This document shows positions 32,517 to 47,680 of a stretch of DNA of 64,000 nucleotides, piece by piece (the stretch's first letter is position 1; every line of letters begins with the position of its first letter). The stretch lies in NCBI GenBank assembly GCA_021771715.1, contig JAETOO010000007.1, positions 1 through 64,000 on the forward strand. The letters run 5' to 3'. A program made the translations under genes and the position numbers. The notes beneath the pieces were generated by a model, which worked only from the letters and a program-made list of their open reading frames with translations, ran no database searches and had not been told where the DNA came from. The stretch comes from Oscillospiraceae bacterium. Its GTDB lineage: Bacteria; Bacillota; Clostridia; Lachnospirales; Lachnospiraceae.

Positions 32517-33893
32517 TCACCTCCTGCCAAATATGGCGCGAAAAAACCCACCGATCCAGCCGCAGACCGTCCGGATGAGCCAGCCCATCAGCCGGAACAC
32601 GCCCGGCACCGCGATCGTACAGCCCCACCGGATAAAAAGAATGCAGAGCACCCCCAGCGCAAACGCGAAGAACCCCAGCCCGATCAGCATCAGGCCTATC
32701 GCCGGTGAGAGCATGCTGCCGATCCCGGTCAGAATCAGGCTGACTCCTGCCGCAAACGCGCCGAACGCAGCCGCTCCCGCCCCGCAGATCAGGCCGAACA
32801 GCCCGCCGATAATCCCGAACAGTGCGCCGATAATCGCTGCGATCACGGAAAAGCCCGCACCGATCAGCGTCCCGGCGAGCGGCACTCCGAAGATGACAAA
32901 CAGAAGCAGCACGAGCAGGCAGCTCCCGCCTCTCCTCTCCCGTCTCTCCGGCCATCGCTCATCCCCGGCACCGCGGCCGTACTCTGAACGGCGGCTCTCA
33001 CGGTCCTCCCGGTCGTACTCCGAGCCGCGGTCTCTCTCATAGTCATCGCCGTATTCTGCGCGGCGCTCATCTCGATCCGACCAATCGTACTCCGAGCAGC
33101 GGTCTCTCTCATAGTCATCGCCATATTCTGCGCGCCGCTTATCTCGATCCGACCGACCGTACTCGGAACGCCGTTCATCGTGATCCTCACGACCGTACCC
33201 GGAACGCCGCTCATCACGATCCGCTCGGTCGTAACCGGAACGCCGCCCATCACGATCCGCCCGGTCGTAACCGGAACGCCGCTCATCACGATCCGCCCGA
33301 TCGTACCCGGATCCGCGGCTCTCTCTGCGGTCGCGCGCTGAGTTCCATGCGTCCTGCGCGCGCTGTCCCCACTCGCTGTCCCTGGCATCGTTCCACGCGC
33401 GCTCCGCCTTCCGCCCGAACTCGCTGGCACGCGCCCGATCCCAGGCTTCCCGCAGGCGCACCCGCCAGTCGTTGGGGTCCCCATTCCTGTCCCACTGGAC
33501 GCGTCCGCTCCATGCTTTGGACTCTCCGTCCATCCCACGATCGGAGCCATCCTCCTGCGCTCCGGCATCCGCCGCATTTTCCTGTTTCTCTTTTCTCCTG
33601 TCTGACCACACCAGCTGCGTGTACTGATCCGGCGCCTGGGCCGCCTCGTCAAAGCGCTGGTCCCGGTATCCATTCTCCGTAAATTCGCCCGCGTGCTCAC
33701 TGCCGCCGACACCGAGCCGTATCTCGGCCGCGACCTTCTCCGGACTGCCAAGCCGTGCAAGGATTTCCGCCTCCTGCTCCGGCCCCGCTTCCTCCAGGTA
33801 ATCCCTGTAATACTCCAGCGCTTCCTCCCGCTCATCCTCCGTGAGATCCGAGAGGAGGTAGCCAAGCTGTTCCAAAAATGCTTCCTTCTTCAT
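32517..33893 (-). CDS. DUF1700 membrane protein with charged repeat region
   Basis: The protein has 458 residues. The N-terminal 60 form the DUF1700 helical unit (FLEQLGYLLSDLTEDEREEALEYYRDYLEE). Residues about 80-194 are a polar linker. Residues 195-314 are a highly charged repeat of a 12-residue unit (SGYDRADRDERR and variants). The last 130 residues hold about four membrane helices rich in Gly and Ala. DUF1700 proteins are usually about 200 residues and are often co-encoded with PadR. ATG 33893 begins the conserved MKKEAFLEQL. The insertion is unusual. Confidence 0.85.
   Translation of the reverse strand: MKKEAFLEQLGYLLSDLTEDEREEALEYYRDYLEEAGPEQEAEILARLGSPEKVAAEIRLGVGGSEHAGEFTENGYRDQRFDEAAQAPDQYTQLVWSDRRKEKQENAADAGAQEDGSDRGMDGESKAWSGRVQWDRNGDPNDWRVRLREAWDRARASEFGRKAERAWNDARDSEWGQRAQDAWNSARDRRESRGSGYDRADRDERRSGYDRADRDGRRSGYDRADRDERRSGYGREDHDERRSEYGRSDRDKRRAEYGDDYERDRCSEYDWSDRDERRAEYGDDYERDRGSEYDREDRESRRSEYGRGAGDERWPERRERRGGSCLLVLLLFVIFGVPLAGTLIGAGFSVIAAIIGALFGIIGGLFGLICGAGAAAFGAFAAGVSLILTGIGSMLSPAIGLMLIGLGFFAFALGVLCILFIRWGCTIAVPGVFRLMGWLIRTVCGWIGGFFRAIFGRR
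32952..33311 (-). repeat. 36-bp coding repeats in the DUF1700 gene
   Basis: About eight to ten 12-residue units follow each other. The first three are nearly identical (SGYDRADRDERR). The later ones form two larger 24-residue repeats containing AEYGDDYERDR. The translation is rich in Arg, Asp and Tyr and probably disordered. Confidence 0.85.
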
Positions 33894-33968
33894 ACCCGTT
33901 CCATTTTCCCTTCTTGCTCCATACATCCAGCCTGACAGCTCATGTCACATTTCTTTGAGATCCCTTCC

Positions 33969-35378: not shown

Positions 35379-36761
35379 CTACAGCCTGATCTTCGTCCAC
35401 TTTCCTCCTCGGAAGCGCAGCGAATTGAAGGTGAGGCGGCAGAACTGGTCGGCGACGATTCCCATCCAGATGCCGTAGATGCCCCAGCCAAAGAAATAGC
35501 AGCACACGTAGGACACCGCGGTACGCACAAAGGTTACACTGATCATGGAGCTGATCATCGTGTAGAACACATCGCCTGCGCCGCGCAGACATCCGGTGAA
35601 GATCACCTGCACGATCTGGAACAGCACGATAATCATGATGATCCGCGTGATGCCCACGCCGATCTCGACGATATCCGCCTCCCGGAAGAACAGGCCGTAC
35701 AGCGCCTTTCCGAAGACAAAATAGAACGCGGACATAAACAGCGCCATCACAAGCCCCACCTTCTGGCAGATCATCCCGTAGCGCTTCGCCAACTCCGGGC
35801 GGCGCTCGCCGAGGCTCTGCCCGATCAGGGCGACCGCGGCCGCCTGCATGCCGTCGCCCAGCGAAAACGAAATGCTCAGCGCGTTCATTCCGACCTGATG
35901 CGCGGCGAGCGCGGACGTCCCCATGTCCGCCGCCATCACCGCGGTCGACATGAAGCCAATCCGCATCAGCACCTGCTCCACGAAGGTCGAGCTCGCGAGC
36001 CGCAGGATCGTCCCGATCACCCCAAAGTGCTCCCAGAGCTTCTCCTTCACGATCAGCGGCAAACTCAGGAACGAATCTCTCCGGAACAGCGACACGATGC
36101 TGATCACGCAGGCCACCACCGTGCCGAACACGGTGGCGATCGCCGCGCCCTGAATCCCGAGCTTCGGGAAGCCCAGATGCCCGCCGATCAGACAGTAATT
36201 CCCGATCATGTTGATCACGTTGGAGATCGTGTTCGTGTACATCGCGATCTTCGTGTTCCCGGCTCCCCGCTGCGCCGCGTTGATCACCATCGAAAGAATG
36301 TTGAACATGGTCCCGCCCATGATGATCCGGAAATACACCACCGCCTTGTCGTGCGTATCCTCCGCCGAGCCGCAGAACCGGATGATCGGATCCGCCAGCG
36401 CGACGCACGCGATGCTCACGACCACGCCCAGCACAGCCGTCAGCAGGAGCGCCACGGCCAGCGTCTCATTCGCCTGCCTCTGCTCCTTGGCGCCCTTCCT
36501 GCGCGCGACCAGCGCGGCGACCGCCACATTGATCGCGATGAACGCCGCCAGCCCCAAAAACTTCGGCTGCGTCGTCAGCCCGACCGCCGCGACCGCCTCC
36601 GACCCGATCCCGCTCACCATCAGCGTATCAATCATGCCGGCCAGCGAGATAAAGAAGGACTCCAGCACTGCCGGCCACGCCATTTTCAGCACGCGCTGGA
36701 GCTGCCCTCTACTCTCTGGTTCCGCCATCGTTCTGTCCGTCTCTGCTCCTCGTTCCCCCAT
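35379..36761 (-). CDS. MATE-family exporter (third copy)
   Basis: This is an inner-membrane exporter of 460 residues with 12 helices. Marks are LKMAWPAVLESFFISLAGMIDTLMVS, a typical NorM-like first helix, AINVAVAALVARRKGA, and GDGMQAAAVALIGQSLGE in the second half. The frame is open to 37025 but ATG 36761 has GGAGAGGAG and AAAGGG upstream and gives a normal N-terminus. ATG 36728 is an alternative. It shares a transcript with sdpI. The substrate is unknown. Confidence 0.92.
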   Translation of the reverse strand: MGERGAETDRTMAEPESRGQLQRVLKMAWPAVLESFFISLAGMIDTLMVSGIGSEAVAAVGLTTQPKFLGLAAFIAINVAVAALVARRKGAKEQRQANETLAVALLLTAVLGVVVSIACVALADPIIRFCGSAEDTHDKAVVYFRIIMGGTMFNILSMVINAAQRGAGNTKIAMYTNTISNVINMIGNYCLIGGHLGFPKLGIQGAAIATVFGTVVACVISIVSLFRRDSFLSLPLIVKEKLWEHFGVIGTILRLASSTFVEQVLMRIGFMSTAVMAADMGTSALAAHQVGMNALSISFSLGDGMQAAAVALIGQSLGERRPELAKRYGMICQKVGLVMALFMSAFYFVFGKALYGLFFREADIVEIGVGITRIIMIIVLFQIVQVIFTGCLRGAGDVFYTMISSMISVTFVRTAVSYVCCYFFGWGIYGIWMGIVADQFCRLTFNSLRFRGGKWTKIRL

Positions 36762-37040
36762 GTCCCTTTCTCTCTCCTCTCCGTAAACCCGTCTCCCGCG
36801 CCTCATGCAACACTCATGCACTGTGACCGGGAACCAACGCTTTATCCGTCCCTCTATTATACCGAAGGTTCGCGGGACGGACAAGTCCATTTTGGCAAAA
36901 TCGCCTGACTTTTGAGGTCGTTCCCGCGCCGGTGCGAAACGGAGCGTAGATGTGGTCGCTTGCGACATATTACATCTTCGCACGAGTACGCATCCACGCG
37001 GACCATTTTGTGTCATAGGAGACAAAACTTTCTATGACAC
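36762..37040. other. Intergenic gap with one palindrome
   Basis: No gene is seen here. The only structure is a broken hairpin at 36933-36982 with arms TGCGAA/TTCGCA, GATGT/ACATC and GTCGC/GCGAC. The stretch after it (GCACGAGTACGCATCCACG) resembles 55090-55108. Confidence 0.5.
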
Positions 37041-37093: not shown

Positions 37094-39418
37094 CTACCAC
37101 CAGATCAGGTAGAACAGCGTCAGCATAAACCCGATGCACAAAAGCAGCAGCGCAAACGACAGGCTCCGCCCGATCACAATGTTGCTCTCCTTGATGCTCT
37201 CGCGCTTCACGGCAAGCACATGCTCATAGTCGACCTCAACCGGGTGCTTCCTGCGTACCGTCGCATTGAGCAGGCGGCGGAACAGGTTCATCACACAGCC
37301 CGCGCAGTGCGTCAGCACATTTCCCTCCGCGAGCTCATGCGGCAGCGGGCTGTCACGGTAGATGCTCTTGCGCAGCGCCACCACCAGCAGATCGACGAGG
37401 CTGTCAAAGCTGCGACAGACGATGCCCGCCAGCGGCAGCACCGCGTGGAACACCCGCTCCGGCAGCTCGTCGAGCACCTTGCAGATTGTCCCGAACAGCC
37501 CCGGCAGCACCACCATCAGCAGCGGCCGGTAGACCAGGTTCTCCAGATCCAGCCAGGTCGGCCAGGCATTGATGTAGGCAGACGTCTTTTTGTCTCTGCG
37601 CATCAGCAGCCTCCGGATCACCAGCGCGTAGACGAGCGCCCCGATCGTGATCGAGATCAGCGCACCCGAGAGATTCTTCAGGCTGAAATAGTCCACCACA
37701 TGGCCGAACTCCTCCAGCTGCATAAACTTCTGTCCCATAGCCGCCGCGCGGTCCATCAGCTGATGCGGGAACAATCCCCAGATCAGAAGCACAGCCGCAC
37801 TCCCCGTGAGCGCGAACGTGCTCTCTGCATTCATATAGCTCGTTTCCTTGTCGTACCGTCTCTGCAGCTCGGCACTCTCGTTTTTCTCGATGAAGATGGC
37901 TGTGAACAGCTTCGTCATATACGCCACGGTCAGTCCGCCCGAGAACAGGAAGATCCACTCTGCCGCCTTCATCACCGCGCCGCCGCCGAACTCCACGATA
38001 CTCTCGTGCAGCAGCGTCTTGCTGACATAGCCGCCGAAGAGCGGAATGCCGCCGATCGCCAGCGCGCCCACCAGGAAGATCGCCTTCAGGAGCGGCTTTT
38101 TCCTGCCGTAGCCGCGGATTTCATTCAGATCCAGCGAATGCGTGTTCATGTAGATCACGCCGGCCGCCATGAAGAGCACCAACTTGATCATCGAGTGGTT
38201 CACCATGTGCAGCAGCGTGCCGTGCACCGCCAGCGCATTTTCCTCCCCGAGCAATCCCTGCATCCCGACGCCGACGAGAATAAAGCCGATCTGCGACATC
38301 GAGGAGCACGCGAGCGTGCGCTTCAGGTCGATCGAGAAGACCGCCAGCAGCGCCCCGCCGAACATAGTGAGCACGCCGATCGCGAGGATCAGCCGCCCCC
38401 AGAGGGCGTCATGGTAAAACAGCCCGGTGCTGATCACGAGGATCCCAAAGATACCGGTCTTCGTCAGGATGCCGGAGAGCAGCGCAGAGGCCGGGGCCGG
38501 AGCCACCGGGTGCGCCTTTGGCAGCCAGATGTGCAGCGGAAACGCACCCGCCTTCGCCCCGAAGCCGAACAGCATGCAGATCCCGGCCGCGTACAGCAGA
38601 TTCCGCCGCTGCGCCAGATCGCCCACCGAGACAAGCTCCTGCAGCGACGCGCCATCCGCAGCGAGGTATGCGCGCGCGGCGGGCCAGAGCTCCGACATCG
38701 TCACCGTCCCGAGCTCATGGTAGACGAGGAAAATCCCCATCAACATCACAAGGCCGCCGATCACCGCCACCGCCAGATACGTCAGCGCAGCGCGCAGCGA
38801 GGGCTCATTCTCCTCCTGCGCCACCCAGACGTAGGAGGTAAACGACATGATCTCAAAGAACACAAACGTCGTGTACAGATCCGCCGACAAAAACACGCCC
38901 ATCGTCGCACCAAAAGTCAGCAGCAAAAACACGTAGAACCGCGTCCGGTTGCCGTGGTGGCGGAAATACTCTCTCGACAGAATCGTCGTCATCATCCACA
39001 TCAGGCAGGCGACCAGCCCGTAGATCAGCCGGAAGCCGTCCATCGTAAAGTGCAGCCCGAAGCCGCACACACCCGGCAGCGTCCCCGCGAGCACCGCGTC
39101 GCCGCCGCGCCCGGCATAAACTGTAAACACTACTGCCATGAGAACAAACTCACTGACCACAAGGAAGTCAGCCAGCACATCCCGAAACACCTCATTTGCA
39201 CCGCTATTGCCGCCGAAATGGCCCGCTTGCGGCTGTCCGCTCCTTTTACCCGCCATGCGGTGCGAGCCCGACGACGCCGGAACGTCCTTTCCGCCCGGCG
39301 CATGATGCACCCCCAGCGCCGCCAGGATCCGCTCACCACGGCAGCCCGCAAGCCACACGAGCAGCGCCCCGAGGAACGGATACAGCACCAGCGCTCCCAG
39401 TATCAGATTTCCTTTCAT
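37094..39418 (-). CDS. Antiporter-like subunit (NuoL/MrpA type), last of four
   Basis: This is a proton-conducting membrane protein of 774 residues with a core of about 14 helices. Conserved charges of the family are kept: Glu in TFVFFEIMSF (TM5), Lys in GFGAKAGAFPLHIWLP (TM7), Lys in ILTKTGIF (TM8) and Lys in GGYVSKTLL (TM12). A further 220 residues follow, with at least three more helices and a C-terminal one, recalling the lateral arm of NuoL. A polar insert of about 45 residues (35-80) after TM1 is unusual. It ends the ten-gene operon, 17 nt after the previous gene. Confidence 0.88.
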   Translation of the reverse strand: MKGNLILGALVLYPFLGALLVWLAGCRGERILAALGVHHAPGGKDVPASSGSHRMAGKRSGQPQAGHFGGNSGANEVFRDVLADFLVVSEFVLMAVVFTVYAGRGGDAVLAGTLPGVCGFGLHFTMDGFRLIYGLVACLMWMMTTILSREYFRHHGNRTRFYVFLLLTFGATMGVFLSADLYTTFVFFEIMSFTSYVWVAQEENEPSLRAALTYLAVAVIGGLVMLMGIFLVYHELGTVTMSELWPAARAYLAADGASLQELVSVGDLAQRRNLLYAAGICMLFGFGAKAGAFPLHIWLPKAHPVAPAPASALLSGILTKTGIFGILVISTGLFYHDALWGRLILAIGVLTMFGGALLAVFSIDLKRTLACSSMSQIGFILVGVGMQGLLGEENALAVHGTLLHMVNHSMIKLVLFMAAGVIYMNTHSLDLNEIRGYGRKKPLLKAIFLVGALAIGGIPLFGGYVSKTLLHESIVEFGGGAVMKAAEWIFLFSGGLTVAYMTKLFTAIFIEKNESAELQRRYDKETSYMNAESTFALTGSAAVLLIWGLFPHQLMDRAAAMGQKFMQLEEFGHVVDYFSLKNLSGALISITIGALVYALVIRRLLMRRDKKTSAYINAWPTWLDLENLVYRPLLMVVLPGLFGTICKVLDELPERVFHAVLPLAGIVCRSFDSLVDLLVVALRKSIYRDSPLPHELAEGNVLTHCAGCVMNLFRRLLNATVRRKHPVEVDYEHVLAVKRESIKESNIVIGRSLSFALLLLCIGFMLTLFYLIWW

Positions 39419-39435
39419 CTCTCCGCTCCTCCTTT

Positions 39436-40911
39436 CTAGCCAACCAGCGCCGCAACCGCCTGCAGCCGCACGAGAATCGGCTCCGGGTGCAGGCCAAACA
39501 GAAACATCGCCGCGACAAAGACTGCCAGCGGCAGAAGCATCTTCCAGCCCGGATCCCGGACATCCGCGATCGACGCGTCGTCAAAGCCCTTCGCCGGGAA
39601 GAATGCCCGGACCGAGATCGTCAGCATGTAGATCGCCGTCAGCAGCGCGGAGATCATCAGGGACGCGATTCCCAGATACGCGAGCGTGCTCCCGTCCGCG
39701 ACCGCCGCCTTCACCAGATTCCATTTACTCACAAAGCCGCACAGCCCCGGCACGCCCATCAGCGCCAGGCCGGACACCGTGAAGGCCGCAAAGACCTTCG
39801 GCATCCTCCGCCCGAAGCCGTCGAGCTGATGAATATACTCCCGCCCGGTCTTGCAGATCACAGCGCCCGCGCAGAAGAACGAACAGATCTTCATCGTCGC
39901 GTGGAAGATCATGTGGCAGAGCGCGCCGACCAGCCCCAGCGGCGACATCAGCACGACGCCGAACAGGATGTACGACAGGTTGCTGACCGTCGACCACGCG
40001 AGACGCCGCTTCAGATGCGTCTCCTTGAGGGCCCGGCTGCAGCCGTACACGATCGTAAAGATAACCGGGATCATCACAACCGCCTGCGCCCAGGTCCCGC
40101 GCAGGAACTCCGCGCCGAAGCTGTAGTACGTGATCCGCATCGTCGTGAACGCCCCCGCCTTCACGACCGCGACCGCGTGCAGCAGCGCCGTCACAGGCGT
40201 CGGCGCGACACCGGCCTTGGGCAGCCAGCCGGAAAACGGCCACATCGCCGCTTTCACGGAAAATCCCATAAAGCACAGCACATAGATCAGCAGCAGCAGG
40301 TTCGTGCGGTCCCCGATCTTCGCGAGGTCCAGCACCCCGCCCGGCACGAAGTTCGACGTCGTCCCGTAGGACAGGATGAAGATCATCCCGACAAACGCAA
40401 ACGCAGCGCCGCCCAGAGAATAGTACAGGTACGTCCGGCTCGCGAGTACCGCCTCGCGCGTCAGTGTGTGCAGGATCAGCGGCAGCGTCACCAGCGTCAG
40501 CAGCTCGTAGAAGCAGTACATCGTCACGACATCCTCCGCGAGCGCGATCCCCAGCGTCACCCCGTACGTGACCGTGTAAAACGCAAAAAATATTTTTTCA
40601 TGCCCCTCGTGCTCCATATATTCAAACGCATACAGCGTCGCCAGCGGCCACAGCACCGAGACAATCCCGGCGAACACCGTCCCCAGCCCGTCCAGCCGGA
40701 AGCTGATGGACAGATTGCTCGCGAAGCGGAACAGCTCAAACGCATCCTGCGGCTGGGCGATCAGCAGCGAGATCGTGAGCGCCGAGTCAAGCAGCACAAC
40801 GCCCTCGATGTAGACCATCATCTGCCGTCTGCTGCCAAAGGGCAGCACCGGGATCAGCACCCCCGCCAGGATCGGAAGCAGCACGACAAGCACTAACATA
40901 GCAGCATTCAT
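39436..40911 (-). CDS. Antiporter-like subunit (NuoN/MrpD type), third of four
   Basis: This is a polytopic protein of 491 residues with about 14 helices. The charged residues needed for proton or cation transfer are present: Glu in YCFYELLTL, Lys in GFSVKAAMWPF, Lys in AVVKAGAF and Lys in GFVSKWNL. The otherwise common His in the TM7 loop (PLHxWLP) is replaced by Ser (PFSGWLP). It begins 17 nt before the last subunit and 15 nt after the second. It could exchange Na+ or move protons as part of a complex. Confidence 0.88.
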   Translation of the reverse strand: MNAAMLVLVVLLPILAGVLIPVLPFGSRRQMMVYIEGVVLLDSALTISLLIAQPQDAFELFRFASNLSISFRLDGLGTVFAGIVSVLWPLATLYAFEYMEHEGHEKIFFAFYTVTYGVTLGIALAEDVVTMYCFYELLTLVTLPLILHTLTREAVLASRTYLYYSLGGAAFAFVGMIFILSYGTTSNFVPGGVLDLAKIGDRTNLLLLIYVLCFMGFSVKAAMWPFSGWLPKAGVAPTPVTALLHAVAVVKAGAFTTMRITYYSFGAEFLRGTWAQAVVMIPVIFTIVYGCSRALKETHLKRRLAWSTVSNLSYILFGVVLMSPLGLVGALCHMIFHATMKICSFFCAGAVICKTGREYIHQLDGFGRRMPKVFAAFTVSGLALMGVPGLCGFVSKWNLVKAAVADGSTLAYLGIASLMISALLTAIYMLTISVRAFFPAKGFDDASIADVRDPGWKMLLPLAVFVAAMFLFGLHPEPILVRLQAVAALVG

Positions 40912-40926
40912 TTTCTCTACTCCTTC

Positions 40927-42438
40927 CTACAGTACGGCGGAAGCGATCTTTCCTGCAAACTGAATCAGCGGATTCGGGAACAGGCCGAACAGCACTGCCA
41001 ATCCGGCAAGGATAGCCAGCGGAATCAGCATTCCTCCGGGCGCCTCCTGCTTTTTCAGCGATGCAGCGTCCACCTTGTTGCCCGGGAAAAATCCGTTCGT
41101 CGTGACCGGCAGCAGATACCCTGCCGTCAGCAGCGCGGAGATCAGCAGCACCGCCGGCCCCAGCCAGCCGAACACCCCGACCTTCGCCTCGAGCGCGCCC
41201 TGCGCCAGATACCACTTGCTGACAAAGCCGCTTGTCGGCGGGATACCGATCAGCGCCAGCGCCGCGAACGTGTAGCACCACAGCGTCTTTGGCATCTGCT
41301 TTCCGATCCCGTAGAGCTCCTCCACCCGCGTCTTCCCGAACCGGTAGATAAAGATGCCGGCCGTCGAGAACAGCGCACACTTGATGACCGCGTGGAAGAC
41401 GACGTGCAGCAGCGCTCCGGTCATGCCGGTCTGCGAGAGCACCGAGAGCCCGAACAGGACGTACGACACCTGGCTGACCGTCGAGTAGGCCAGCCTTTTT
41501 TTGAAGACCTTCTCCCGGAACGCCATCATCGAGCCCATGAAGACCGTCAGAAGCGCCAGCGACATCCAGGCCGTCTGCACCCAGGTCCCGCGGATAAAAT
41601 CAGGCCCGACCACGAAGAATACGACGCGGATGATCGCCAGCACGCCGGCCTTCGCGATGATGCCGGAGAGCACTGCGGACGCCGGGGACGGAGCCACCGG
41701 GTGCGCCGCAGGCAGCCACGCGTGCAGCGGGAACATACCGGCCTTCGCCCCGAAGCCGATCAGCATCCCGAAAATTGCAACGTACAGGATTCCGGTGTGC
41801 CCGGATGCAAGCGCCAGATTTAAAGACCCGCCCGGGGTAAAGGTCAGCGTGTCGCAGTACTGATACAGGAAAAAGATGCCGAACAGTCCCAGGTACGCGC
41901 CGCACATCGAGTAGAACAGATATTTCAGCGCCGCCATGATCGCCTCGCGCGAGCCGTTGTGCAGCACCATCGGCATCGAGGTCAGCGTCATGATCTCATA
42001 GCACATATACAAGGTCACCAGATTGCCGGAAAAGCACAGCGCGACGAGCACGCCGTACACGATCAGATAAAACCCGAAGAACCGCGTTTCCTTCCCCTCG
42101 TGCTCCATATAGACGAAGGAGTAGAACCCGATCACCACCCACACGACGCTGATCAGCGTCACGAACAGCCGGCTGACATCGTCGATCCGGAAAAACACCG
42201 GGATTCCCTTCATCAGTTCAAATAAGGTGAGGCTCCGCTCTCCGCTCCACGCCGCCAGCAGCGCGGCCGCCGCCGAGAGAACCAGCGCCGCGGCCACCGC
42301 AAGGTGCAGGCTGCGAAGCTCCTCCCTGCCGGGCTTTTCGCACGCTCTCCCGCTGCGCTTCTTTGCCGTCAGCGAAAGCAGCAGAAGCGTGCCCGAGAGC
42401 ACCGGCAGAAACACCGCCAAAATCATGATAGCATCCAT
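40927..42438 (-). CDS. Antiporter-like subunit (NuoM/MrpD type), second of four
   Basis: This is a polytopic protein of 503 residues with about 14 helices. It retains Glu in YMCYEIMTL, Lys in GFGAKAGMFPLHAWLP, Lys in GIIAKAGV and Lys in GFVSKWYL. The PLHAWLPAAHPVAPSPASA stretch is close to that of the fourth subunit, which suggests those two arose by duplication. It is 12 nt after the first subunit gene. Confidence 0.88.
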   Translation of the reverse strand: MDAIMILAVFLPVLSGTLLLLSLTAKKRSGRACEKPGREELRSLHLAVAAALVLSAAAALLAAWSGERSLTLFELMKGIPVFFRIDDVSRLFVTLISVVWVVIGFYSFVYMEHEGKETRFFGFYLIVYGVLVALCFSGNLVTLYMCYEIMTLTSMPMVLHNGSREAIMAALKYLFYSMCGAYLGLFGIFFLYQYCDTLTFTPGGSLNLALASGHTGILYVAIFGMLIGFGAKAGMFPLHAWLPAAHPVAPSPASAVLSGIIAKAGVLAIIRVVFFVVGPDFIRGTWVQTAWMSLALLTVFMGSMMAFREKVFKKRLAYSTVSQVSYVLFGLSVLSQTGMTGALLHVVFHAVIKCALFSTAGIFIYRFGKTRVEELYGIGKQMPKTLWCYTFAALALIGIPPTSGFVSKWYLAQGALEAKVGVFGWLGPAVLLISALLTAGYLLPVTTNGFFPGNKVDAASLKKQEAPGGMLIPLAILAGLAVLFGLFPNPLIQFAGKIASAVL

Positions 42439-42450
42439 TTTCTTCTCCTC

Positions 42451-43962
42451 CTATGCGAACATTTGCAGGCCGCTCTGCAGCAGCTCCACGATCGGCTCCG
42501 ACTTCAGGCCCAGAAGCAGGTTCAGCGCGATAAAGCAGATCATCGCCACGGACTTCGCCTTCTGGTCGCTCATATGGGCCGGGGTGAACTGCTTTGCCGC
42601 GAGCACTTCCTTCTTCTCCGGCGTGTAGATCCGGATCACCGTCTTCATGAAATAGACTGCGTTCAGGACCGTGCTGACCGCGAGCGCGATCAGAGCCGGC
42701 AGCAGCTTGTGCACAGCCTCCACCGACGCCTGCGCAAACAGAAGCTTCGAGATAAAACCGGCACACGCCGGGATACCCACCATCGACAGCGAGCCCACGG
42801 TAAACGCGACGCCCGCCAGCTTGTTGCGGTAGCCCGCCCCGGTCAGATCGAAGAAATCCGTGCTGTCGTTCGATGCGTCCGTCAGCCCGGAAGCGGCGAC
42901 GAACAGCAGCGACTTCGTCGCGGCATGTGAGATGATGTGAAACAGGCTCGCAATCACTCCCGCCGTCGTCCCCAGGCCGAGTCCCATGTAAATGTAACCG
43001 ATCTGAGCGACGGACGAGTACGCGATCATGCGCCGCACATTGCTCTCGCGGATCGCGTCGACCGAGCCCATGATCATGCCCACAATGCCGAAGACGAACA
43101 GCACGTTGACCACGCGGCTGTCCCGCACGATGTCAAAGCCGATGACGCGGCTGAAAATTTTGATCAGCAGGAAAATGTACCCTTTCGACACCAGGGAGGA
43201 AAGGATCGCCGCCGAGGATACGGTCGAGTAGCCGTACGCATCCGGCAGCCAGCCGTGGAACGGATAGAGCGCGCTCTTGATCGCAAGTCCGACGGACATC
43301 AGGCCGAGCGCCACCAGAAGCGGCATGCGGTACTGTCCGACGCTGTAGATTTTCCGCACGATCTCCTGAATGTTGCTCATCAGCAGATGCCCGGTGATCC
43401 CGTACAGGAAACAGATGCCCAGCAGCAGCATACCGGAGCCCAGCAGGCTCATGATCATGTAGCGCGTCGCGCCCACGATCGTCCGGCCGTTCTGCTTGAT
43501 CATGATCAGGCCGCACGCGGAGATCGTGTTGATCTCGACGAACACGTACGCCGTGAACAGGTCGTTCGTGTAGATCAGCGCCAGCAGCGAGGACAGCAGC
43601 AGATTGACCATGATGTAGTAGAGATTCTCCTTCGATGGCTCCAGCTCCCGCTCCCGCTCGAGCGAGCCGCCGATCATCGAGAGCAGCATGATCACGCAGA
43701 AAAATACGGCCATCACCGCCTCGAGCACCCCGACCCGGATCTCATTGCCCCAGGGCGCGGAGAAATGTCCCATCCGGTAGACGTAGGCCTCCCCGGTGCG
43801 GATCACAAATTGCAGCACGGCCACGTTCATCGCGCCGATCGCCGTGATCACTGTGATGTTGACCCACTTCGCCTTCTTCCGGTCCAGGATCGAGGAGAGC
43901 GGCCCGGAAAACAGCGAGAGGATGATGCAGATAAACGGAAAATTCTGAACAAACTCCATCAC
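42451..43962 (-). CDS. mrpD: Antiporter-like subunit (MrpD/MbhH type), first of four
   Basis: This is a polytopic protein of 503 residues with about 14 helices. The key charges are intact: Glu in YVFVEINTI, Lys in GLAIKSALYPFHGWLPDAY, Lys in SLVSKGYIF and Lys in GFISKLL. Its place directly after mrpC, overlapping it by 4 nt, matches mrpD or mbhH in known operons. In those, it forms an ion-translocating channel half next to MrpC. The other three large subunits follow. Confidence 0.88.
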   Translation of the reverse strand: MMEFVQNFPFICIILSLFSGPLSSILDRKKAKWVNITVITAIGAMNVAVLQFVIRTGEAYVYRMGHFSAPWGNEIRVGVLEAVMAVFFCVIMLLSMIGGSLERERELEPSKENLYYIMVNLLLSSLLALIYTNDLFTAYVFVEINTISACGLIMIKQNGRTIVGATRYMIMSLLGSGMLLLGICFLYGITGHLLMSNIQEIVRKIYSVGQYRMPLLVALGLMSVGLAIKSALYPFHGWLPDAYGYSTVSSAAILSSLVSKGYIFLLIKIFSRVIGFDIVRDSRVVNVLFVFGIVGMIMGSVDAIRESNVRRMIAYSSVAQIGYIYMGLGLGTTAGVIASLFHIISHAATKSLLFVAASGLTDASNDSTDFFDLTGAGYRNKLAGVAFTVGSLSMVGIPACAGFISKLLFAQASVEAVHKLLPALIALAVSTVLNAVYFMKTVIRIYTPEKKEVLAAKQFTPAHMSDQKAKSVAMICFIALNLLLGLKSEPIVELLQSGLQMFA

Positions 43963-44336
43963 AAGCCCTCCTTCTCAAGCCGGGTCGTGATCTCATCCAG
44001 ATTCAGCGTGTGGTACCGGCGGTACAGCCGGATCGTCAGGGAAAGCATCAGCGCCGAGACAGACACCGACACGACGATGCCGGTCAGCACGAGGCCGGCC
44101 GGGATCGGATTGATGTACGCCTCCACACTCTGCACCCCGTCCACGACGATCGGCGCCTTGCGCCCCTCGATGTAGCCCTTCAGGGCAAGGAACAGGTACA
44201 TCGCCGTGTCCATGATATTCAGGCCGATGATCTTCTTGATCAGGTTCTGCTGCAGGAGCAGGTTGGAGAAGCCGATTCCGAAGAGGATCATCGCGATTGC
44301 TTCCTCGTAGTTCGTAATCAGGTTCGGGAAATTCAT
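43959..44336 (-). CDS. mrpC: MrpC/NuoK-like subunit
   Basis: This is a 125-residue protein with three membrane helices (GIGFSNLLLQQNLIKKIIGLNIM, then VLTGIVVSVSVSALMLSLTI near the end). The NuoK-like Glu near EEAIAMILFG is present. MrpC/MbhG links the D subunit to the small subunits. It overlaps mrpD by 4 nt and starts 1 nt after the MrpB-type gene. Confidence 0.88.
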   Translation of the reverse strand: MNFPNLITNYEEAIAMILFGIGFSNLLLQQNLIKKIIGLNIMDTAMYLFLALKGYIEGRKAPIVVDGVQSVEAYINPIPAGLVLTGIVVSVSVSALMLSLTIRLYRRYHTLNLDEITTRLEKEGL

Positions 44337-44337
44337 A

Positions 44338-45309
44338 TCAGTATCCTCCTTTCCGGAACATCACATAGAACGTGTACATCGTGCCCGCGACGACGATTCC
44401 GACACAGATATTCAAAAGCAGGATCAGGCCGCTCGAGAGAATCGCCCCCGGAGTGCCCAGTGGGATCACGCTGTGGATCTCGTTCGCCCCTGTGTAGAAG
44501 GAGTAGCTCTTCGCGAGCGCATAGCACGCCAGCGCGCCGAAGCTCATCCACTTGTACGTCTTCGCGGTGAAGAACCGCTCTGTCCTTGCAAAGCCGAACG
44601 CGTTCAGGTACAGGATCAGCCCCGCGCCGATCACCGCGCCGCCCGAGAAGCCGCCGCCCGGCCCCAGGTGTCCGCAGAGGATCACGTAGATCCCGAAGAT
44701 CACGATCAGCGGCACGAGAAATCTGGCCGAGGTCTGCAGGATCACGTCGTTCTTCGGCTCATGGCTGCGGTCGTCTGCCTGCAGCGATTCCATGCTGTTT
44801 CTTCCCTTCTTCTTGTCGATGCGCAGCAAAATCAGCACCGTGCAGGTCGCGATAAACAGCACATGCGACTCTCCCAGGGTATCGAACGCACGGTAGTCCA
44901 GAATCATACCGGTCACGATGTTGACCGCGCCGGTCTCCTGCAGTCCGCTCTCTATGTAGCGCTCGGGCACTTCATTGTTCACCGGATTGCTCGCCTGTCC
45001 GAACGGCGGCAGCCCGGAGACACCGGTCAGCAGTACCAGCACCAGGCTGATGCAGAAGATCACGGAAAATACCCGATAGATTTTCTTGAAAATGCGCAGC
45101 TCCGCGTTGTGCTCCTCGTCGAAGACCGTCTCGATCACGCGCTCCTTCTCCGCCTTGCGCTGCAGCGCGGATTCATGGGTCTCCTGGTACGGGCGCTGCG
45201 GCTTCATCTCCACCGTGTCGAGGAACGGATCCTTCGTCCCGTCGAGCCACTGCCTCAGGCGGAAGGAAAGCGTCTGCTCATACTCCTGTTCCGATTTTTT
45301 TCTGCTCAT
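44338..45309 (-). CDS. mrpB: Fused MbhE-MrpB (MnhB) subunit
   Basis: The protein has 323 residues in three parts. Residues 1-75 are a charged cytosolic head. Residues about 75-165 match the end of MrpA or MbhE: a helix, then TGMILDYRAFDTLGESHVLF and a second helix. Residues about 185-323 are a full MnhB domain (YVILCGHLGPGGGFSGGAVIGAGLIL and two further helices). MrpA normally carries the MbhE part, and MbhE and MbhF are separate in archaea, so this is a fusion. It overlaps the MbhD gene by 32 nt. GGAGGAG lies 7 nt upstream. Confidence 0.85.
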   Translation of the reverse strand: MSRKKSEQEYEQTLSFRLRQWLDGTKDPFLDTVEMKPQRPYQETHESALQRKAEKERVIETVFDEEHNAELRIFKKIYRVFSVIFCISLVLVLLTGVSGLPPFGQASNPVNNEVPERYIESGLQETGAVNIVTGMILDYRAFDTLGESHVLFIATCTVLILLRIDKKKGRNSMESLQADDRSHEPKNDVILQTSARFLVPLIVIFGIYVILCGHLGPGGGFSGGAVIGAGLILYLNAFGFARTERFFTAKTYKWMSFGALACYALAKSYSFYTGANEIHSVIPLGTPGAILSSGLILLLNICVGIVVAGTMYTFYVMFRKGGY

Positions 45310-45580
45310 CGGTACGCTCCTCCTCTCCCTCTGATTCGTCCTTCTTCATGATCGCGTGAATCTTTTTCAGCGTGATGAAGAACAGCACGCTCGTGATCCC
45401 GGCCCCGACCGCGGCCTCCGTGATCGCCAGGTCCGGCGACTCCAGCAGAATCCAGATCACCGACGCGACCAGGCTGTACGACATATAGATCAAAATCGAA
45501 TTTAACAGGTCCTTCGAGAGGCTGACCGACACGGCACAGACCACAAGAAACGCCAGCAAAATAAAACGAAACGCTTCCAT
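45278..45580 (-). CDS. MbhD-like (DUF4040) subunit
   Basis: This is a 100-residue protein with three helices and the motif SPDLAITEAAVGAGITSVLF, shared with MbhD and the C-terminal part of MrpA. A Lys/Glu-rich tail follows. In group 1 Mrp operons this part is joined to MrpA. In Mbh operons it is a separate gene as here. It starts 1 nt after mrpG and overlaps the next gene. Confidence 0.85.
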   Translation of the reverse strand: MEAFRFILLAFLVVCAVSVSLSKDLLNSILIYMSYSLVASVIWILLESPDLAITEAAVGAGITSVLFFITLKKIHAIMKKDESEGEEERTDEQKKIGTGV

Positions 45581-45581
45581 A

Positions 45582-45986
45582 TTATAATGCCTCCTGTTCT
45601 GCAGTTACATCCTGCGCCTCTACTTCTTTACTCTGCGCCAACTCCGCCTCGAGCTCCCGCAGATCGACGACGCGGTAGTGCTCCTCCTCGTCCTCGTTTG
45701 TCGTCACCTCCAGACGCGCGATCAGGTGCGACGACACCGGGGATGCGAACCAGAGGAAGACGATCACGAGCAGGAGCTTCGCCGAGATAAAGTTCACTCC
45801 GCTCATCACGATCAATCCGATCAGCGCAAACCCGATCCCAAGGGTGTCTCCCATCGCCGCCGCATGCATCCGGTTCAGCACATACTTGAAGCGGAACACG
45901 CCGATCATCTCCACGAGAAAGATCGCAAGCCCGGCGAGCAGCAGGCCGGCCCCGATCAGAAACTGCAGCCATTCAAACACCGCCAT
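45582..45986 (-). CDS. mrpG: MrpG/MnhG subunit
   Basis: This is a 134-residue protein with three helices (FLIGAGLLLAGLAIFLVEMIGVFRF onward) and the family stretch LNRMHAAAMGDTLGIGFALIGL. A soluble acidic tail of about 45 residues extends beyond the usual end. ATG 45986 follows GAGGAGGAG and overlaps the end of mrpF by 14 nt. MrpG is a small scaffold subunit of the complex. Confidence 0.9.
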   Translation of the reverse strand: MAVFEWLQFLIGAGLLLAGLAIFLVEMIGVFRFKYVLNRMHAAAMGDTLGIGFALIGLIVMSGVNFISAKLLLVIVFLWFASPVSSHLIARLEVTTNEDEEEHYRVVDLRELEAELAQSKEVEAQDVTAEQEAL

Positions 45987-46305
45987 GCTTTCTCTCCTCC
46001 TCTTCCTTCTTCTCGAGGTACACACCCATGTACACCTTCGTCAGCACGATGACCGCAAGGAAACTGATCATCGCGTAGATAATGCAGATATCCACGAGGT
46101 AGCCCTCTCCTATCATCACTGCGAGGATCGCGATGATCACCATAATCATCGTGCCCATCATATTGACCGCGACGATCCGGTCCGCAATTTTCGGCCCGAT
46201 GATCGCACGGATCAGGCAGAGCATCACCATCACCGCCAGAAAAATCAATGCGGCTACAAACAGTCCGTGATACGCCTGCGCAAGCCCCGGCACTCCACTT
46301 CCCAT
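45973..46305 (-). CDS. mrpF: MrpF/MnhF subunit
   Basis: This is a 110-residue protein with three helices and the marks IRAIIGPKIADRIVAVNMMGTM and DICIIYAMISFLAVIVL. MrpF in studied Mrp complexes is close to the sodium path. GGGAGGG lies 7 nt upstream of ATG 46305. It is 59 nt after mrpE, the widest gap in the operon. Confidence 0.9.
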   Translation of the reverse strand: MGSGVPGLAQAYHGLFVAALIFLAVMVMLCLIRAIIGPKIADRIVAVNMMGTMIMVIIAILAVMIGEGYLVDICIIYAMISFLAVIVLTKVYMGVYLEKKEEEERKHGGV

Positions 46306-46364
46306 GTCAGCACCCTCCCTCTCTACTTTTTACACGTTCCATTTTCATGACAACATCCTCTCTC

Positions 46365-46823
46365 CTACAGCTCCATGCCCCTTAGCAGCTCGACAAAGAC
46401 CGACTGGTCGATCCCCTCCGCGAGACTCTCATCGAGGCAGTGCACCGTGTACTCCGGCCCCTCCAGCGTCACCGTGATCGTCCCGGGGGTCAGCGTGATC
46501 GCATCCGCCAGAAACGCCTGGCCCGCAGGAGAGTTCATATCCGCCCGGAACCGCACAATCGTCGGCCGGAGCTCCTCGCGCTCAGAAAGGATCATATGGA
46601 TCACGGCGAAGTTCGCCTTGACAATCTCGCTCACGAGTGTGTATGCATAATGGCCGATCTGAAGCACGCGCCGAAACAGCCGCTTCTCCTGTTCGATGCT
46701 GTAATCCAGAAACTTACAGGTGAACCAGAACATCACTGCGGCGATTACGACTCCGAACGCGCAGATTTCCAGGGTGAACGCCCCGTTGAAGATGACCCAC
46801 AGAGCAAAATACAGCAGATACAT
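46365..46823 (-). CDS. mrpE: MrpE/MnhE subunit, first gene of the operon
   Basis: This is a 152-residue protein with two N-terminal helices (YLLYFALWVIFNGAFTLEICAFGVVIAAVMFW broken at the turn) and a cytosolic end with TLTPGTITVTLEG and VHCLDESLAEGID, both typical of MnhE. ATG 46823 follows GGAGGG by about 6 nt. It starts a ten-gene run that reads mrpE-F-G-mbhD-mbhE/mrpB-mrpC-mrpD and three more D-like genes. The gap of about 185 bp to the divergent protease gene must hold the operon promoter. Confidence 0.9.
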   Translation of the reverse strand: MYLLYFALWVIFNGAFTLEICAFGVVIAAVMFWFTCKFLDYSIEQEKRLFRRVLQIGHYAYTLVSEIVKANFAVIHMILSEREELRPTIVRFRADMNSPAGQAFLADAITLTPGTITVTLEGPEYTVHCLDESLAEGIDQSVFVELLRGMEL

Positions 46824-47008
46824 GGACTTCCCTCCCCATTTCTGATAGAATAGACTGCGGGATGGCCGCAAAAAGACGCGTCCATCTCGCTTTATCCGAC
46901 CTATTTTAACTCATTCTTTTCAAATAGTCCAGCATGGATTTTTCCGGTTCCGCTGACCCGGATTCGACGCCTGGCTGAATGGGAACTGTGCAAAAAGGAG
47001 AGCAAGAT

Positions 47009-47680
47009 ATGAGAAATGGAATCACGATCATCGCCGGTCTTTTCTGGGTTTTGACCTGGTTTGGCTTTATGCTTTTGTATACCTTTCTCGATGTCGCGGT
47101 GTGGAGAAAGCTCACGCCTGCGAGTGCAAAGTATCTGAATCTGGTTTCGATTGTTGTGTGTATGGCGGCTTTCCTGCATTTGCTGCGGGCTAAGACCGGT
47201 TTTGAGCCCCATTTCTCTCAGGGAATTTCATTTCAGAACTTATTGTTGGCCGCCGGCTGTGCGCTCGCCCTCTATCTTCTCCTGGATCGGGGCATAGACC
47301 CTCTGTTTGAGAAAATTTTTCCGGCGAGTGAGGACACCTATCAGGAGACGCTTCAAACGCTTAGCAAGGCCCCCATTGTCAGCCTGCTCCATGTCTGCCT
47401 CCTTGCACCAGTGATAGAAGAGCTTTTGATGAGAGGTTTTTTGCTTGGCGGATTGTCCGCAACATACGGGACAGGAATCGCACTGGCGCTGTCCTCATTC
47501 CTGTTTGCATTGCTCCATTTTAATATGGTACAGACTCTTTCCGCGCTGATCTGCAGTGCTGTGCTTGGCATGCTCTACCTGCACACCGGATCCATCGTCT
47601 GCTGCATCGCCGCCCATATGGGCTATAATCTGATCTCTTATCTCACGACAATTCTGCCCTTGTTTCACGCAGGATCGTGA
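47009..47680 (+). CDS. CPBP-family intramembrane protease (CAAX type)
   Basis: This is a 223-residue membrane protein with about seven helices. The conserved motifs of the ABI/CPBP family are present: EELLMRGFLLGG (EExxxR), FALLHFN and CIAAHMGYN. Bacterial members process or guard against secreted peptides, but few have known substrates. AAAGGAG lies 8 nt before ATG 47009. It is divergent from the Mrp operon and stands alone on the plus strand. Confidence 0.88.
   Translation: MRNGITIIAGLFWVLTWFGFMLLYTFLDVAVWRKLTPASAKYLNLVSIVVCMAAFLHLLRAKTGFEPHFSQGISFQNLLLAAGCALALYLLLDRGIDPLFEKIFPASEDTYQETLQTLSKAPIVSLLHVCLLAPVIEELLMRGFLLGGLSATYGTGIALALSSFLFALLHFNMVQTLSALICSAVLGMLYLHTGSIVCCIAAHMGYNLISYLTTILPLFHAGS

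Follow-up and report, generated by a model that had tools for sequence, protein, structure and literature searches.

What does a membrane operon of the Mrp/Mbh type do when it carries four antiporter-like large subunits and no redox module? Such an operon lies in a 64,000-nucleotide stretch of contig JAETOO010000007.1 (Oscillospiraceae bacterium, assembly GCA_021771715.1), which we call the window. Ten intact, tightly packed genes occupy positions 37094-46823 on its minus strand, in the order MrpE, F, G, MbhD, a fused MbhE+MrpB subunit (EB), MrpC, and then four NuoL/M/N-like subunits (L1-L4). We propose that the operon probably encodes a stand-alone, redox-free Mrp (CPA3) cation/proton antiporter, most like the group 3 Mrp module in archaeal MBH and MBS. 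The predicted antiporter would fall within an already known kind of Mrp; its novelty would be four pump-like subunits without a redox part, and no account of a redox-free cluster with four large subunits was found in the openly licensed literature searched. The genes are as follows.

46365-46823, minus strand: mrpE-like subunit E, 152 amino acids (Pfam MNHE, 7.6e-28; start codon read)
45973-46305, minus strand: mrpF-like subunit F, 110 amino acids (Pfam MrpF_PhaF, 7.4e-14; aligned to solved chains)
45582-45986, minus strand: mrpG-like subunit G, 134 amino acids, overlapping the mrpF end (Pfam PhaG_MnhG_YufB, 1.2e-22)
45278-45580, minus strand: mbhD-like subunit, 100 amino acids (Pfam MbhD, 4.9e-19)
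44338-45309, minus strand: fused MbhE + MrpB subunit (EB), 323 amino acids (Pfam MbhE, 2.3e-10; MnhB, 4.8e-24)
43959-44336, minus strand: mrpC/NuoK-like subunit, 125 amino acids (Pfam Oxidored_q2, 6e-20; NCBIfam subunit C models below cut-off)
42451-43962, minus strand: L1, MbhH/MbsH/NuoN-like, 503 amino acids (Proton_antipo_M; best solved relatives MbsH and MbhH; tree)
40927-42438, minus strand: L2, first duplicated middle subunit, 503 amino acids (Proton_antipo_M; sister clade of L3)
39436-40911, minus strand: L3, second duplicated middle subunit, 491 amino acids (Proton_antipo_M; sister clade of L2)
37094-39418, minus strand: L4, MrpA/NuoL-like, 774 amino acids (Proton_antipo_M; best PDB matches MrpA and NuoL; AlphaFold model)

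Pfam matches above the cut-off were obtained for MNHE, MrpF_PhaF, PhaG_MnhG, MbhD, MbhE with MnhB (in one protein), Oxidored_q2, and four Proton_antipo_M; the MNHE and PhaG_MnhG_YufB queries started one codon upstream of the gene start. The NCBIfam antiporter-subunit models agreed with the Pfam names, with scores below their curated cut-offs. The start codon of mrpE is the ATG at 46823-46821. All ten genes lie in the interval given by the original prediction, and its Mbh-like gene order without a redox module was borne out by the Pfam content and the family searches described below. The spacing is operon-like, ranging from overlaps of at most 32 bases to a gap of 59 bases. MbsE of MBS matches the EB family profile across the MbhE/MrpB junction. 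MbhD and MbhE are separate from all four large subunits, and there is no MrpA gene. A genome-wide search (4.18 Mb, 54 contigs, 97.7% complete) found no Proton_antipo_M match besides these four.

The ten-gene order was found complete in relatives, where the original prediction had proposed to look for it. In a family sample of 80 genomes (one per genus, source genome included), Proton_antipo_M proteins occurred in 26 genomes and stood four in a row in 12. Nine of the 11 other four-in-a-row loci had all ten genes in order; one (L041) was cut by a contig end, and one (L037) had no E, F, G, or D within 2.2 kb upstream of EB, which is either a genuine departure or an error of assembly. When named genomes were scanned with the L3 alignment, 567 places were confirmed, of which the best 80 were taken: 64 of these 80 loci had all ten genes in order, and the other 16 were cut by contig ends. 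By title, the best 80 came chiefly from Lachnospiraceae, Blautia, Acetatifactor, and comparable gut bacteria, and also from Parablautia muri, Hominisplanchenecus murintestinalis, Butyricicoccus, and two Erysipelotrichaceae bins. Having been selected for likeness to L3, the set cannot show that the order is absent from remoter relatives. A class sample of 393 genomes was searched with the EB alignment, and 36 matched at 1e-20. Three of them (G000, G016, and G049) had already been examined, the Proton_antipo_M proteins were inspected in 30 more, and 20 loci were taken. Five loci, from the own family and families f3, f32, f14, and f71, matched the window in having all ten genes, four large subunits, and fused EB; two (family f23) had four large subunits with separate E and B, and 13 had three large subunits, 12 of these with separate E and B. 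A recent local duplication peculiar to the source genome was ruled out, because different genera share the ten-gene order. Frames with fused EB are not confined to four-subunit operons; in genome G321, such a frame stands with one large subunit and an adjoining NuoH gene (G321:C36:21023-25064). G321 seems to have an MBS/MBH-like complex beside its three-subunit stand-alone operon.

In its gene order and subunits the operon is similar to the membrane half of MBH and MBS, and it could instead encode a membrane arm onto which a redox partner from another part of the genome docks, as the original prediction had also offered. We sought NuoH (PF00146), NuoB (PF01058), and NuoD (PF00346) in 22 four-subunit genomes, comprising the source genome, 11 from the family draw, eight from the class draw, and the two of f23 (drafts, 92-100% complete; in G089 the operon is split across contigs). 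None of the three families was found in 20 of the 22 genomes, the source genome included, a negative that refers to complex-I-type families in draft genomes, partners unlike complex I not having been sought genome-wide. In the source genome, neither the NuoH-like anchor and NuoB/NuoD-like redox subunits of MBH, MBS, and Ech-type complexes nor the NuoH and electron-input NuoB/NuoD expected beside a complex I membrane arm were found. The three families occurred only in G008 and G434. In both genomes they sit on a different contig from the operon, together with a fifth Proton_antipo_M protein, an arrangement like that of an Ech-type hydrogenase. Neighbouring genes were clustered over 96 loci, with a flank gene of at least 90 amino acids upstream in 77 and downstream in 84. 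There was no general neighbour: the commonest flank clusters, each named from one representative, were a methyltransferase (13/96), a thioredoxin (10/96), and a D-Ala-D-Ala carboxypeptidase (10/96). An oxidoreductase gene constantly beside the operon would have contradicted the original prediction, and the nearest to this was the thioredoxin-type gene, which precedes mrpE in the same orientation with a median distance of 52 bases (e.g., L099:3152-3472). It is possibly co-transcribed with the operon in those 10 loci and is too rare for a general partner. Because the redox families were not found in 20 of the 22 draft genomes and no neighbour is general, we read the operon as a stand-alone antiporter, and a complex-I-type partner was rejected; an arm awaiting a partner is very improbable, and this part of the original prediction was not upheld. 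Separately, the family relative G040 has two NuoH/NuoB-bearing clusters (C30 and C40), one with two large subunits; our guess is that one is of a formate-hydrogenlyase-like type and the other of the Ech type.

The next question is whether all four large subunits could move protons. The register of the charges was set by alignment with E. coli NuoL/M/N, HyfB/D/F, MrpA, MrpD, MbhH, MbsH, and MbsH'. In the window, L1-L4 each have the Glu of transmembrane helix (TM) 5, the Lys of TM7 and TM8, the His and Lys of TM11, and the Lys of TM12. The original prediction had named the TM5 Glu and the TM7, TM8, and TM12 Lys, and the alignment with E. coli NuoL/M/N, MrpD, and MbhH confirmed them in all four; the loss of key charges in a proper alignment, which it had set out as a refutation, did not occur in L1-L4. 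Conservation was counted over 90, 96, 96, and 92 proteins for L1, L2, L3, and L4. The TM5, TM7, and TM12 charges were conserved wherever the residue was present (one gap each in L1 and L2), the TM8 Lys was conserved in L1, L2, and L4, and the TM11 His/Lys pair was conserved in all four subunits (11 family loci only). In L3, 11 of the 96 proteins have Asn in place of the TM8 Lys; with this exception, the large subunits have the buried Glu/Lys proton path of group 3 Mrp. These results support the claim of four charged, pump-like subunits against the two of a standard Mrp. All three loci of family f23 (L137, L138, and L140) have Glu instead of the TM11 Lys in their L4-type subunit, and the other five checked residues are kept. 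In large subunits of Haloterrigena (L151:8794-10647) and Sinorhizobium meliloti (L148:11534), Asn replaces the TM7 Lys.

The antiporter may well be real and its extra subunits still be structural or regulatory, leaving the exchange ratio of an ordinary Mrp, for which 2 H+ per Na+ is only a model (PMC9568556). We hold this version, which is compatible with the stand-alone antiporter, to be possible and rather doubtful. Drift should erode the proton-path charges of a purely structural subunit, and they are kept in all four, apart from the L3 TM8 Lys where it is lost.

The original prediction described the H/D position as present four times. Four NuoL/M/N-like subunits are indeed present, but they are of three types and not one position repeated: L1 is MbhH/NuoN-like, L2 and L3 are a duplicated middle type, and L4 is MrpA/NuoL-like with a lateral helix. 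The AlphaFold model of L4 predicts the lateral helix at residues 625-685 and a C-terminal helix, and the best PDB matches of L4 are MrpA and NuoL, its fold being MrpA-like despite the absence of a separate MrpA gene. Two trees were built, one of 139 large subunits by a quick search with a simple model and one of 58 by a careful mixture-model analysis (support as bootstrap/SH-aLRT). In both, L2 and L3 were sister clades; they held 17 rows each (100/99 each in the second tree), and their union had 89/99. The single middle subunit of the three-subunit operons fell outside the L2+L3 pair in both trees; the other branches were weak, with long branches flagged, and we drew no deeper conclusions from them. 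Because the middle subunit of the three-subunit operons lies outside the pair, L2 and L3 can be taken as sister duplicates descended from the one middle subunit of an ancestor with three large subunits, and a single duplication explains the fourth subunit. The extra large subunit of the f23 operons (read in two pieces in genome G128) forms a separate, deep branch, and f23 therefore reached four by another route, either a gain or the retention of an older paralogue. Other combinations were also seen. The three-subunit operons of family f64 (L142 and L144) consist of the L1 type plus two L4-type subunits with no middle type, which is another route to three. On plasmid pSymA of S. meliloti RMO17, L148:9827-11290 is part of four large-subunit genes in a row. 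Two of them cluster with E. coli NuoM and NuoN; the first belongs to the clade of the Mrp-operon middle subunit and keeps all key charges. The row might represent a complex I that acquired an Mrp-type subunit; the record carries no annotation and was considered for its large-subunit genes only.

The part of L4 after the TM12 Lys had a median of 298 residues (range 249-384) in 89 four-subunit L4s, compared with 274.5 in the eight nearest three-subunit operons and 268.5 (range 202-316) in all 14, L4s below 600 amino acids or cut by a contig end being dropped. The p of 0.004 against the eight nearest ignores relatedness, the nearest set was hand-picked, the ranges overlap, and part of the difference falls ahead of the lateral helix. 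In f23, the same part had 350 and 371 residues versus 301. A longer lateral-helix region is only a hint of a marker of subunit number.

Which cation would be exchanged depends on the small subunits. MrpF Asp38 of B. pseudofirmus is conserved, functionally important, and on the proposed sodium path (PMC9568556). The window residue aligned with it is Asn48, and Asn was found in 82/82 F sequences of four-subunit loci (window included), 12/12 three-subunit loci, both f23 four-subunit loci, and in Peptoclostridium and Haloterrigena; these counts leave out loci whose F went unfound. The position is Asp in a Vibrio plasmid and in four solved MrpF-type chains, those of MBH, MBS, and two bacterial Mrp (Anoxybacillus and B. 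pseudofirmus). Since the Asp is Asn in every clostridial F examined, the Na+ route is uncertain, and the antiporter might serve another cation, such as the K+ or Ca2+ carried by some Mrp systems (PMC5703873), or use a different cation route. We consider this unlikely. The other acidic residues are invariant (D42 and D72 of F in 82/82, D50 and E55 of the MbhD-like subunit in 84/84, and D143 and E147 of EB in 88/88), and Glu55 of the MbhD-like subunit aligns with the Glu of MbsD/MbhD. In addition, an Rnf/Nqr-type protein and the ATP synthase point to Na+ energetics in the host. The genome yielded a single ATP synthase c subunit, with GPGVGQG ... VAETTGLYG, which by its motif is of the Na+-binding type.

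Do the four large subunits work together? In cyanobacteria, forms of NDH-1 use different NdhD/NdhF subunits, and a shared small-subunit module could likewise pair with different large subunits to give alternative antiporters. Swapping at one position is conceivable for L2 and L3 as duplicates, and L3 may have drifted in the proteins that lost the TM8 Lys. However, all four genes stand in one operon in a fixed order in every complete named locus (64/64, from the best 80 of 567), with a single gene each for MrpC, MbhD, and EB, and L1, L2/L3, and L4 resemble types that lie side by side in complex I and MBS. Alternative antiporters thus seem improbable to us.

Under the preferred reading of one stand-alone antiporter, L1-L2-L3-L4 would lie side by side, with L1 nearest MrpC and L4 at the far end, and the lateral helix of L4 would tie the four together. 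Protons would cross the antiporter-like subunits and be coupled through buried charges to a cation in the E/F/G/D/EB module. As the host has the Rnf/Nqr-type protein and the c subunit with the Na+-type motif, the likely role would be an interchange of Na+ and H+ gradients, with the direction set by both: H+ could be expelled at the expense of Na+ under fermentation-acid load, or Na+ refilled from the proton gradient. The original prediction's high-ratio Na+/H+ exchanger is possible, and our guess is that the fourth subunit, and the two extra subunits taken together, may let more protons move for each cation. More specifically, and quite tentatively, four proton-translocating subunits could act in series on one cation site and move several (up to about four) protons per cation without redox, an arrangement that would have arisen along two separate routes, in which a middle subunit was added and the tie-bar helix became longer. 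If so, a weak proton-motive force could hold a steep cation gradient, or one cation could drive out several protons.

Several observations weigh against our reading. First, the joining of all four large subunits in one complex is a prediction, and the L3 TM8 Lys is not constant. Second, given the MrpF Asn, the operon would be no simple copy of the known Na+ route, and the cation or the route may differ. Third, PF03116 (Nqr2/RnfD/RnfE) was found in 73/80 family genomes, including all 12 four-subunit ones; because it is near-universal in the sample, it marks the family and does not tie the operon to Na+. Finally, L037 departs from the gene order, and the redox searches have the reach stated above.

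The likeness to group 3 Mrp depends on how the group is drawn. It has been defined as lacking mrpA and having only mrpD, sometimes several (PMC8415708), or instead by irregular gene order (PMC5703873). The genes for B, C, D, E, F, and G stand in one cluster here, and there are mrpD-type genes and no mrpA gene, though L4 is MrpA-like in fold. Since MrpF Asp38, described as conserved (PMC9568556) and not as a defining feature of the group, is Asn48 here, we call the operon group-3-like and keep function apart from membership.

Among known systems, the nearest one that has been studied is a group 3 Mrp that stands alone in Pyrococcus furiosus (mrpEFGBB'CD). It shares a similar set and order of small subunits and lacks a redox half and an MrpA gene; its coupling ion is Na+, it takes part in the pH response, and its authors proposed a reversible direction (PMC8415708). 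It has one large subunit instead of four and two separate B-type genes, and a lateral-helix subunit such as L4 is not mentioned in the sections of that paper considered (PMC8415708). On plasmid EAL2_808p of Peptoclostridium acidaminophilum, as in other Clostridia, a stand-alone operon has E-F-G-MbhD-MbhE-MnhB-C before the large subunits, no redox genes directly beside it, and Asn48 in MrpF. It differs in having three large subunits, separate MbhE and MnhB genes, and a single middle subunit akin to L2 and L3. A plasmid Mrp of Haloterrigena salifodinae (E-F-G-DUF4040-MnhB-C, then large subunits) also has MrpF Asn48; it is archaeal, with three large subunits, the third without the TM7 Lys. MBH and MBS of P. 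furiosus contain the same antiporter module, and MbsE is an MbhE+MrpB-type fusion like EB. MBH has one large subunit and MBS two, and in both a NuoH-like subunit anchors a redox module; neither anchor nor redox module was found in the source genome. MbsH' of MBS has a lateral helix (PMC7684303). Group 1/2 Mrp (MrpA-G) have MrpC, E, F, G, and B in common with the window, the MrpA N-terminal domain corresponding to L4 and MrpD belonging to the L1-L3 family, but they have two large subunits, with the MbhD- and MbhE-like parts fused into MrpA. Three-subunit clusters are already present in annotated records, group 3 clusters with several mrpD have been described (PMC8415708), and mrpD is repeated in clusters of cyanobacteria and Microbacterium (PMC5703873).

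Mrp antiporters are presumed relatives or ancestors of the complex I pumping arm. Chadwick et al. (2018) reportedly predicted that a complex I with an extra antiporter-like subunit and a lateral-helix insertion has a raised pumping capacity; such an insertion would parallel the longer L4 tail, in a redox-driven complex as opposed to a redox-free one. A 2020 paper described the stoichiometry of Mrp, MBH, and MBS as unknown (PMC7684303), and a 2022 paper said the same of Mrp (PMC9568556). The number of large subunits in natural stand-alone antiporters without redox runs from one (P. furiosus) through two (Mrp) and three (other Clostridia) to four, which makes a graded series. This series would let the question of one proton per antiporter-like subunit be measured without electron transfer, and is a natural test of whether added pump subunits alter the exchange ratio.

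The operon is bordered downstream by a MATE transporter gene on the same strand (35379-37025) and on the other side by a divergent CAAX-protease-like gene (46979-47680). Scans for promoters and terminators gave chance-level counts (3 vs. 2.8 expected and 10 vs. 8.2 expected, respectively) and were not relied on. Elsewhere in the window, a minus-strand frame of 469 amino acids (32517-33926) has a strongly repetitive charged stretch of SGYDRADRDERR-like units followed by a hydrophobic C-terminal part.

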